Source of the DNA: Cryomorphaceae bacterium
GTDB taxonomy: Bacteria; Bacteroidota; Bacteroidia; Flavobacteriales; Schleiferiaceae
Length of the DNA stretch: 64,000 nucleotides
Direction: 5' to 3'
Assembly: GCA_003566715.1 (NCBI GenBank)
Contig: PXCF01000135.1
Coordinates: forward strand, 1 to 64,000
A program made the translations under genes and the position numbers. Positions within the stretch are counted from its first letter, which is position 1. The number at the start of each line of letters is the position of its first letter. The notes below the pieces were generated by a model. That model made no database searches and was not told where the DNA came from. It saw only the letters and a program-made list of their open reading frames with translations. Of the stretch, positions 1 through 2,998 are shown piece by piece.

Positions 1-1389
1 AAAAAAGAATATGACTGTATAACCCTGATTTGCCCAGTCGTCATACGCTTGCTGCCAGGCTTCGTCGATGTCCAAACCGCCATCCGTTAAGTAGCGAATA
101 CTGCCAATCATGTATACCTGACCTTCGTGTTTTGCGTGTACGCCTTTTCCCGTCACCGAGTCAAAGTTTTGCAAATCCACCGCTTTGTGGTCGTCTTTAA
201 GGTAATACTCCACCGCTGAAGCCAAGGGGTGCTCCGATTGTAACTCCATACTCAGCAACACGTCTTTTCTAGCCCCGTCGCTCCAACGTGCATCAATCAC
301 TTTAGGTCGGCCTTCAGTAATGGTACCGGTTTTATCGAGCACCACCGTGTTGACTTTGGCTACCGCCTGCAGAGCTGCCGCTTCTTTCACCAACACGTGC
401 TTTTCTGCCCCTTTACCGATACCAATCATAATGGCCGTGGGCGTGGCCAATCCCAGTGCACACGGACAAGCAATGACCAGTACAGATATGGCCGCTACGA
501 TGCCCAGCGACAAACCGGAGGAACCGGCGGCCATGTACCAAACACCTACGGTCAACACCGAAAGGATGAGAACAACTGGCACAAAAACAGCCGCAATTTT
601 ATCCACCGTGTGTTGAATGGGCGCTTTGGAACCCTGCGCGCTTTGTACCGTCTGAATGATTTGTCCGAGCAGGGTCTCCTCCCCCGCTCCGGTTACCTTC
701 AACACAAAGCTCCCTTTCTGATTGATGGTACCGGCAAAGACTTTGTCGTCTTTGGTTTTTTCCACCGGTATGGGCTCCCCGTTGATGGGACTCTCGTCGA
801 TGTAGCTCATTCCGTCTTCGACTACACCGTCTACCGGTACTTTCTCGCCCGGTTTTACGCGCACCATGTGTCCCGACCGTAACTCAGCAATAGACACCTC
901 TTCTGTTTCCCCGGATTCATTGATTTTCAAAGCCGTTGACGGTTGAAGACCGAGCAATTTTTCAATGGCTTCACCCGATTGTCGCTGGGCGCGAAACTCG
1001 ATGAATTTACCCAAAGAAATAAAGGCAATAATCACCGCCGATGCTTCAAAGTAGATGTAAGCTTCCAGTCCGTACTGCTCAAAGAAGGACGGAAAGAACA
1101 TGGACACCGTCGAATAAACAAAGGCCACACCGGTGCTCAGCGCTACCAAAGTGTCCATATTTGCGCTCTTCAGTTTAAGGCGCTTCCAGGCATTGATGAA
1201 AAAGTGGCGACCGTAATAAAAGGTCACAATACCGGTAAGCAAAAACGATATCCACAGACGGACGTTTGGTCCCGTACCCGCTTCCGGCATAAAAAACATG
1301 CCAATGACAAACACGGGAAACGCGCCAATCATGGAAGCGATGGCGCGTATTTTTAAACGGTTGTAGGTTTTGGAATGTCTATCTACGAA
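1..1389 (-). CDS. copA: Copper-exporting P1B-type ATPase, catalytic part, cut by left window edge
   Basis: Pumps Cu+ from the cytoplasm using ATP. The minus frame is open from about 1389 to the window edge, 463 codons. Visible in order: membrane segments, the actuator motif with NGEP in place of the usual TGEP (near 790), the metal-binding membrane motif CPC followed by ALGLATPT (near 455), the phosphorylation motif DKTGT (near 335), and the SEHPLA motif of the nucleotide-binding domain. The C-terminal part lies outside the window. No ATG, GTG or TTG precedes the first membrane helix in this frame; the first ATG (about 1333) falls inside it. Translation therefore probably enters from the HMA frame just upstream by a -1 shift at an A10 run. 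Metal specificity for Cu+ is inferred from CPC and the fused HMA domain. Confidence 0.9.
1320..1348 (-). repeat. GC-rich inverted repeat downstream of the A10 run
   Basis: Perfect 8-bp arms ACGCGCCA and TGGCGCGT enclose a 13-nt loop within the ATPase reading frame. It could form an RNA hairpin, but it begins about 41 nt after the A run. That is farther than the usual 5-9 nt for a frameshift stimulator, so any role is uncertain. Confidence 0.4.
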
Positions 1390-1622
1390 TTTTTTTTTTC
1401 CAGCGCCTCAATGTTGAGGTCGTAACCCAACTTTTTGATTTCAGCTCTCCACGCTTCTAAATCGGCTTTTTCACCGGAGTACTCTACCGTTGCCGTGTGG
1501 TTGGCGTAATTTACCCGTGCATTGTTGACATCGGGAATGTGCTTAAGCATGTTTTCAACAGACATGGCGCAGGAGGCGCAGGTCATGCCTTCGACGGGGA
1601 TATGGATGGTGTTATCGCTCAT
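1383..1622 (-). CDS. Heavy-metal-associated (HMA) domain, CopZ-like, zero-frame product of the copA locus
   Basis: A 79-residue HMA domain that would bind Cu+ through the GMTCASC motif, ligands C15 and C18, with the ferredoxin-like length of about 70 residues. It stops at a TAG three codons after a run of ten A. The ATPase continues in the -1 frame with no start codon of its own before TM1. The segment is therefore best read as the N-terminal metal-binding domain of CopA that can also be released as a free copper chaperone. This matches E. coli copA, where -1 frameshifting makes the short CopA(Z). If the A10 is a sequencing error, the two parts form one ordinary CopA. The metal-binding call is firm; the free form is inference. 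Confidence 0.85.
   Translation of the reverse strand: MSDNTIHIPVEGMTCASCAMSVENMLKHIPDVNNARVNYANHTATVEYSGEKADLEAWRAEIKKLGYDLNIEALEKKNS
1390..1399 (-). other. Candidate -1 frameshift (slippery) site: A10 run between HMA and ATPase frames
   Basis: On the minus strand the HMA frame reads GAA AAA AAA AAT TCG TAG. The heptamer A AAA AAA fits the X XXY YYZ slippery pattern. A -1 shift gives ...KKKFVDRHSK, which leads into the ATPase. Transcriptional slippage adding one A would have the same effect. A miscounted homopolymer in the assembly cannot be excluded from the sequence alone. Confidence 0.6.
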
Positions 1623-1705: not shown

Positions 1706-2998
1706 TTACAACGAATCCCGATAAATGTACAATCCGTAGGTAATGTCATCGGCAAAAGAACGGTTGTTGATCAATGCACCGGTAGACATATTGTATTCAC
1801 GGATGGACGATCCGTCTGTAACCAACAGCCTGCCTTGGGGTGCATCGTAATCAAACCACCCGGCATTGCCGAGATCGTTTCTGGGGATGGTGCCGGATTG
1901 CTGTGTATTGACTTCCACAAATCCCGATGTGGTTAGAATTAAAAAACGATGGGTACTGATTCTTTCTGCTTTGATGACTTTACCGCCAAAATTTGACCCC
2001 CGAACATCCAGTGGCCCTTCCGGTGTCCAGCGCGCCATTTTTCCGATACCATTATCGTTGTAAAATACCCACCATCGTCCGGCATCAGCGGTGAATGCTG
2101 ATTTGAGTTGTGCATCGGTAAACAGTTCGCCCATATTGGCGCCGGTACGAGGATTATACACGCGCCAAGCATTGAAGAGATTGCCTACGTGGGTTAGATT
2201 GACCAGAATAAAATCATTGCCATGAGCAGTAAAGGTCGAAAAATTATCGGTGGGTAAACTGAAATTATGTACCAAGTGTCCACTACCATCTCGGGTTTGT
2301 ACAAAGCCCAAGTAATTCCCCAAGGTAAAGCGTGTATCGGTAGCACTCAATCCAAAAAAGAATGGAAACTGTCCCTGGGTTTCATCGGCAATGGAACGCA
2401 GTTGATCTCCACTTTTTACGTCAATCACACGCGTGGGACCAAATCGATTGGGCATCAACACCAATTGCTCGGCTTTTTTCACTACCGCAGCTTGAACGGC
2501 CGAGCCATTAAAAGGGCCAAGGTGAAAAGTAGCATTGTTTCTTCTGTAAATACTTGCAGAATAGGCATTGCCCAAATCTCTTACCAGTGCGTATCCGTCA
2601 TTGATTTGTTCATTGCGAATATACTGAATGGGGACTTCAGCACTGGCGTTGTCATCTTCGGTGAAAGCAGTAATGCGCAACAAATAGGATCCCGCAGGCA
2701 TTTGGGTATTGTTAAAAGTCAACGCCCCCTCTAGTTGGTACGTATCACCTGATATGACCCCCTCAACTGGCAGATAGTTGGCCAAGCCATCGGTATCAAT
2801 TACCGATACTCGGAATCTGCTTAATTCGGGATGCCTTAGTGTAGCACGATAAATAAGGTCATCGTTAAAACCCACCATTGCCCCCGCAGCAGGCTCATGG
2901 ATAATAACATCCGGGAATGTGGTATTTTTTTTTGAACAAGCATAAAAAAGCATGCTCAAAAGAAATATTTTCACGACCTTTACCATTGCATTTTTCAA
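1706..2998 (-). CDS. Lipoprotein of unknown function with Ig-like and propeller-like parts
   Basis: A 430-residue protein starting with a lipoprotein signal: basic n-region, hydrophobic IFLLSMLFYA, and Cys21 as the likely lipidated residue. It should sit in the outer or inner membrane facing the periplasm. Residues about 28-130 look like an Ig-like or cadherin-like beta domain (HEPAAGAMVG..., GSYLLRITAF...). The remaining 300 residues contain repeated short beta-rich segments with W and GN motifs, compatible with a beta-propeller, but I do not recognise a family. M5 is an alternative start. It is divergent from dnaB, 57 bp apart. No function can be assigned. Confidence 0.75.
   Translation of the reverse strand: MKNAMVKVVKIFLLSMLFYACSKKNTTFPDVIIHEPAAGAMVGFNDDLIYRATLRHPELSRFRVSVIDTDGLANYLPVEGVISGDTYQLEGALTFNNTQMPAGSYLLRITAFTEDDNASAEVPIQYIRNEQINDGYALVRDLGNAYSASIYRRNNATFHLGPFNGSAVQAAVVKKAEQLVLMPNRFGPTRVIDVKSGDQLRSIADETQGQFPFFFGLSATDTRFTLGNYLGFVQTRDGSGHLVHNFSLPTDNFSTFTAHGNDFILVNLTHVGNLFNAWRVYNPRTGANMGELFTDAQLKSAFTADAGRWWVFYNDNGIGKMARWTPEGPLDVRGSNFGGKVIKAERISTHRFLILTTSGFVEVNTQQSGTIPRNDLGNAGWFDYDAPQGRLLVTDGSSIREYNMSTGALINNRSFADDITYGLYIYRDSL

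Follow-up and report, generated by a model that had tools for sequence, protein, structure and literature searches.

A copA gene of one Cryomorphaceae genus probably yields a copper chaperone by default and the full pump only through slippage at a conserved A10 run

In Escherichia coli, copA undergoes programmed −1 ribosomal frameshifting to yield CopA(Z) (Meydan 2017, Drees 2017, as described in PMC5009743 and PMC9548414): the 834-aa pump is the 0-frame product, and a 70-aa chaperone results when the −1 shift cuts translation short (PMC5009743). Slippage on A runs has been described in other genes. In Citrobacter rodentium tssM1, transcriptional slippage at an A11 run ahead of a stop codon was measured, and both forms of the protein are needed (PMC4256274); Thermus thermophilus dnaX relies on transcriptional slippage at A9, and insertion sequence (IS) elements form orfA/orfB fusions on runs of A8-A10 (PMC1088944). 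In the openly accessible literature searched, we found no reports of copA recoding in Bacteroidota.

We analyzed a window of 64,000 nt, positions 1 to 64,000 of contig PXCF01000135.1 of a Cryomorphaceae bacterium (assembly GCA_003566715.1), which opens inside a copA locus read from the minus strand (Table 1). The 0-frame open reading frame (ORF) running from 1622 to 1383, MSDNTIHIPVEGMTCASC...EALEKKNS in the ORF translation of the window, encodes 79 residues and matched Pfam PF00403 with an E-value of 1.1e-17 (64.6 bits); the best NCBIfam matches were CopZ models, with scores under the curated cut-offs. Its N-terminus (MSDNTIHIPV) lacks a signal sequence as judged by eye, and the protein has the make-up of CopZ-type chaperones, a small stand-alone HMA domain with a CxxC motif. 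The run, in the context G-A10-T (1399..1390), is read in the 0 frame as GAA AAA AAA AAT TCG TAG, preceded by CTG, and contains in register the heptamer A AAA AAA at 1398-1392, GA[A AAA AAA]AAT, which fits the X XXY YYZ form of −1 programmed ribosomal frameshifting sites. From the run, the −1 frame reads AAA TTC GTA GAT AGA CAT and is open from 1407 to the contig start; a TGA closes it just 5' of the run, and no possible start precedes the ATG at 1332, which falls within the first membrane helix (MIGAFPVFVIGM). This reading of the ORFs bears out the layout given in the first-pass annotation, namely, an HMA frame stopped by TAG three codons past A10 and an ATPase in the −1 frame with no start before its first helix.

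Table 1. Features of the copA locus in window coordinates
Feature	Position	Strand	Basis or remark
0-frame ORF, copper-chaperone-like HMA protein	1383..1622	-	PF00403; GMTCASC metal site
A10 run, candidate slip site (T10 on the + strand)	1390..1399	-	same length and phase in 5/5 species
0-frame stop TAG, three codons past the run	1383-1385	-	species comparison
−1 frame ORF, Cu P1B-1-type ATPase (CopA), from the A run on	1..1407	-	PF00122, PF00702
−1 frame linker, run to first membrane helix, FVDRHSKTYNRLKIRAIAS	1333..1389	-	without in-frame ATG/GTG/TTG

Base 1 of the window is the contig end, and the last ~197 residues of the pump are found on contig C50, in a 237-aa frame. The start of the window contig and the end of C50 are identical over exactly 121 bp, marking an unresolved assembly-graph junction inside copA. 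The two parts together hold a P-type ATPase core, comprising the PF00122 and PF00702 domains, DKTGT in the window and GDGIND on C50, the latter motif also being present in all four complete relatives. They also carry the signatures of a Cu(I) P1B-1 ATPase (CopA), that is, CPC in TM6 in the window part, and YN and MxxSS on C50 and in the relatives. The pump copy of one relative (G001) scored above the cut-offs of both TIGR01511 and TIGR01525. The TGE motif of the actuator loop is NGE (DESPINGEP) in four of the five genus members, the window copy included, and TGE in the fifth (G003); most relatives have TGE or SGE.

The locus shares with E. coli copA the derivation of a free ~70-80 aa HMA chaperone and a full pump from a single copper-ATPase gene, predicted in our case, and a −1 frame difference past the N-terminal HMA domain. 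The logic is inverted, however: E. coli reads its full-length pump in the 0 frame and obtains the short chaperone by the −1 shift, whereas in the present gene it is the chaperone that is read in the 0 frame and the pump that needs a shift. Also unlike the E. coli gene, this one has an A10 run without a recognizable nested stimulator and a single HMA domain, belongs to a distant phylum and is confined to one genus, and its fused relatives, with a runless linker, point to a separate origin. The gene is thus like E. coli copA in its predicted outcome, yet on these sequence comparisons we do not count it as a member of that recoding type, and the proposal of the first-pass annotation that it does the same as E. 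coli copA is not upheld, given the reversed frames and the different site, context and origin (PMC5009743). In arrangement, the locus recalls C. rodentium tssM1, where poly-A likewise lies just before the 0-frame stop, the short protein comes from ordinary decoding and the long one from realignment; that is a different gene, its mechanism was measured where ours is predicted, and the genus-wide conservation is a feature of the present case. With Thermus dnaX and the IS elements it has in common a homopolymeric A run and two products from one gene. In dnaX, unlike here, it is the long product that the 0 frame yields; the IS elements, as here, make the short product by default and the long one by a shift, but they are mobile, whereas copA encodes a housekeeping metal pump.

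To follow the locus through the genus, we compared the window genome (G000) with four other species (G001-G004; records JAIUMB, JAFIEY, REDE and SKIJ), each a separate metagenome-assembled genome (MAG) labelled Cryomorphaceae or Flavobacteriales, for a sample of five species only. In all five, the site reads [G/C]AA AAA AAA AAT, the run counts exactly ten A's, the 0 frame stops nearby and the pump lies in the −1 frame; the position of the stop is common to four, and in G002 it comes later, as TAA. The first-pass annotation had pointed to such relatives for comparison: none of the five has an A8, an A11 or an interrupted run, and all retain an early stop. The pumps of the four other species are 87, 69, 62 and 61% identical to the window copy. 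For the closest pair, dS is 0.39 in the HMA part and 1.12 in the pump, dN is 0.023 and 0.076, respectively, and dN/dS is ~0.06 for HMA in the 0 frame and ~0.07 for the pump in the −1 frame; for most other pairs in the genus, dS is near or beyond saturation. Purifying selection acts on both frames. A homopolymer of ten bases is a hot spot for mutation, and the constancy of both the run and the frame break therefore calls for selection; neutral drift would have altered the run at these synonymous divergences. Under ordinary AAA usage, the chance that three AAA lysines keep their third-position A is 0.12-0.50 per gene, so that conservation of the run alone is modest evidence, and it is the conserved frame break that forms the strong part. 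Several species thus share a slip site of at least 7 nt followed by a coding frame, as conserved recoding sites do.

These data make it very likely that the copA gene is functional and that its output of two proteins is set by a programmed frame shift at the conserved A10. Ordinary 0-frame decoding would end three codons past the run and release a soluble, cytosolic CopZ-like HMA chaperone, and a fraction of the products, shifted by −1, would continue into the membrane pump to give an HMA-CopA protein of about 738 aa. Both proteins are presumably made. The free 79-residue chaperone and full HMA-pump that had been proposed at the outset to arise from one gene by a −1 shift at the A run are thereby supported as a prediction, the A10 being present in 5/5 species.

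The shift could be accomplished in two ways: RNA polymerase would add one A while transcribing A10, giving A11, or ribosomes would step back by one base on A AAA AAA. The same protein, with E/Q-KKK-F/S at the junction, would result by either route. We consider transcriptional slippage, alone or dominant, a plausible mechanism, −1 ribosomal frameshifting a possible one, and a real mixture of the two an unlikely one. That the slip is purely ribosomal is a reading we regard as possible but somewhat doubtful. Paired AAA AAA codons are classically prone to shifting, and the heptamer stands in perfect register and is retained in all five species. Against this, no conserved stem-loop occurs at the usual 5-9 nt position, windows of 40-60 nt 3' of the run fold no better than dinucleotide shuffles, and single-sequence folding, shuffles and alignment folding revealed no conserved stimulatory nested RNA structure in reach of the run across the five species. 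A strong GCGCC/GGCGC hairpin does lie ~45-50 nt past the run in G000 and G001 (window 1268-1350; z -3.6 in G000 with an 80-nt window), but is too distant for a classical stimulator and is not kept in G002-G004. Nor is any Shine-Dalgarno (SD)-like element common to the species, an upstream GAGG at -10 being restricted to G000 and G001; ribosomes of Bacteroidia generally occlude the anti-SD, and yet prfB frameshifting persists there (PMC8710568). With neither a nested stimulator nor an SD-like element conserved, shift efficiency would depend solely on the run. Runs of ~9 A/T make RNA polymerase slippage a selective problem in many bacteria (PMC1088944), and the run has ten A's, above this threshold, in every species. 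That the conserved run has ten A's instead of seven mildly favors transcriptional slippage, with the reservation that KKK with Glu/Gln often keeps the A's anyway. Given the length of the run and the lack of a conserved nested stimulator, we rate transcriptional slippage no less likely than −1 ribosomal frameshifting. The ribosomal slip at A AAA AAA suggested in the first-pass annotation is thus a possibility, with the heptamer in register, but is not favored over RNA polymerase slippage at A10.

Far less probable is that the two proteins are translated separately, with the pump, devoid of the HMA domain, made from an internal or coupled start. All five species do have in-frame start codons close to the first membrane helix, and translational coupling is possible at short overlaps, but these starts share neither position nor codon across the five species, and in G000 and G001 the first of them falls inside the helix itself. 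The −1 linker ahead of the start also changes in a coding-like way: between the closest pair, 5 of its codons differ synonymously and 3 by replacement, the length of its indel is divisible by three, and it can be aligned to the corresponding linker in fused homologues. Separate starts would, furthermore, leave the invariant A10 unexplained.

Long homopolymers are hypermutable and serve as switches in other systems, and DNA slippage at A10 could, accordingly, turn the pump on (A8/A11) or off (A10) between cells. Such phase variation should give A8 or A11 in some genomes, but a single run length is found in all five consensus genomes, making this quite improbable. The A10 in copA goes beyond chance: it recurs at the same codons in all five species and is the sole A/T run of at least 10 within the contig's first 80 kb; a pattern search recovered about 25 such runs genome-wide, few of them within genes. 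A10 occurs inside some intact ORFs of the window genome, and the gene next to copA (1706-2998, minus strand, with a lipoprotein-like N-terminus) has an in-frame A9 at 2925-2933 (CSKKNTTF), matched by A9 at the same codons of an intact ORF in G001 and G004, indicating that A9 within a gene is tolerated in the genus. Together, these cases show that long A runs in genes are not always disastrous, which counts against the programmed-shift reading. Elsewhere in the window genome, an A11 run (G000:C43:30050-30060) is followed after 5 nt by the end of a 90-codon open frame; no adjoining frame of at least 70 codons starts at that run.

A decaying pseudogene, as a single frameshift in a big gene might suggest, is scarcely credible when complete copies have ~660 open codons past the shift, all P1B-1 motifs are retained, dN/dS is ~0.07 and the split persists across the genus. 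Equally negligible is a sequencing or assembly error, the main alternative in the first-pass annotation, as a homopolymer miscount: A10 is a difficult stretch for some sequencers, but the same run and frame break recur in five separately deposited genomes, with contig names of MEGAHIT and SPAdes style among the records, and the exact 121-bp contig overlap indicates short-read de Bruijn assembly, so that this alternative is effectively refuted.

We searched 88 family, 398 order and 395 class genomes with a 225-aa junction query and found no other convincing frame-shifted copA among them. Intact orthologues in these samples have HMA, linker and pump in one frame, and the break is limited to this genus. 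The remaining split matches were contig-end fragments (G010, G728) or represented other CopA subfamilies or paralogues in which the match begins past HMA. In a maximum-likelihood tree, the five split genes form a single branch (support 100/100) among fused genes, which fits a split that arose once and has not been reversed. At the position of the run, the linker of the fused relatives is acidic and glutamine-rich and lacks a lysine run; KKK is therefore not a requirement of CopA, and the KKK/A10 stretch would most simply be a derived feature of the genus.

The split may also bear on chaperone supply. Other PF00403 proteins in the five genomes have lipoprotein or Sec-type N-termini as judged by eye, with the exception of one P-type ATPase in G002. 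No stand-alone HMA protein lacking a signal sequence was found in them other than the 0-frame copA product, which makes this product the sole candidate found for a cytosolic chaperone. A distinct HMA gene of 67-90 aa adjoins copA in many fused relatives, and related flavobacteria with such a copZ-like gene have the same chaperone and HMA-ATPase activities, but from two genes and unshifted. An economical reading is that the frame shift stands in for a separate copZ gene. By analogy with CopZ/CopA biology, the free HMA protein would deliver Cu(I) to the pump.

Overall, we find it likely that the pump is made only through RNA-polymerase or ribosome slippage at the genus-conserved A10 and the chaperone by default, an arrangement of independent origin with a logic reversed relative to E. 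coli and possibly a fixed excess of chaperone over pump. For annotation, this is a warning: gene callers would log such a gene as a truncated copA without a metal-binding domain, or as a pseudogene. If our reading is correct, this would be a second, independently evolved copA that encodes chaperone and pump through a frame shift, in another phylum and with the opposite default. The few known cases of recoding in Bacteroidota, a phylum in which ribosomes generally occlude the anti-SD, would be joined by a conserved housekeeping transporter. It would also suggest that the ratio of chaperone to pump is tunable by selection through recoding.
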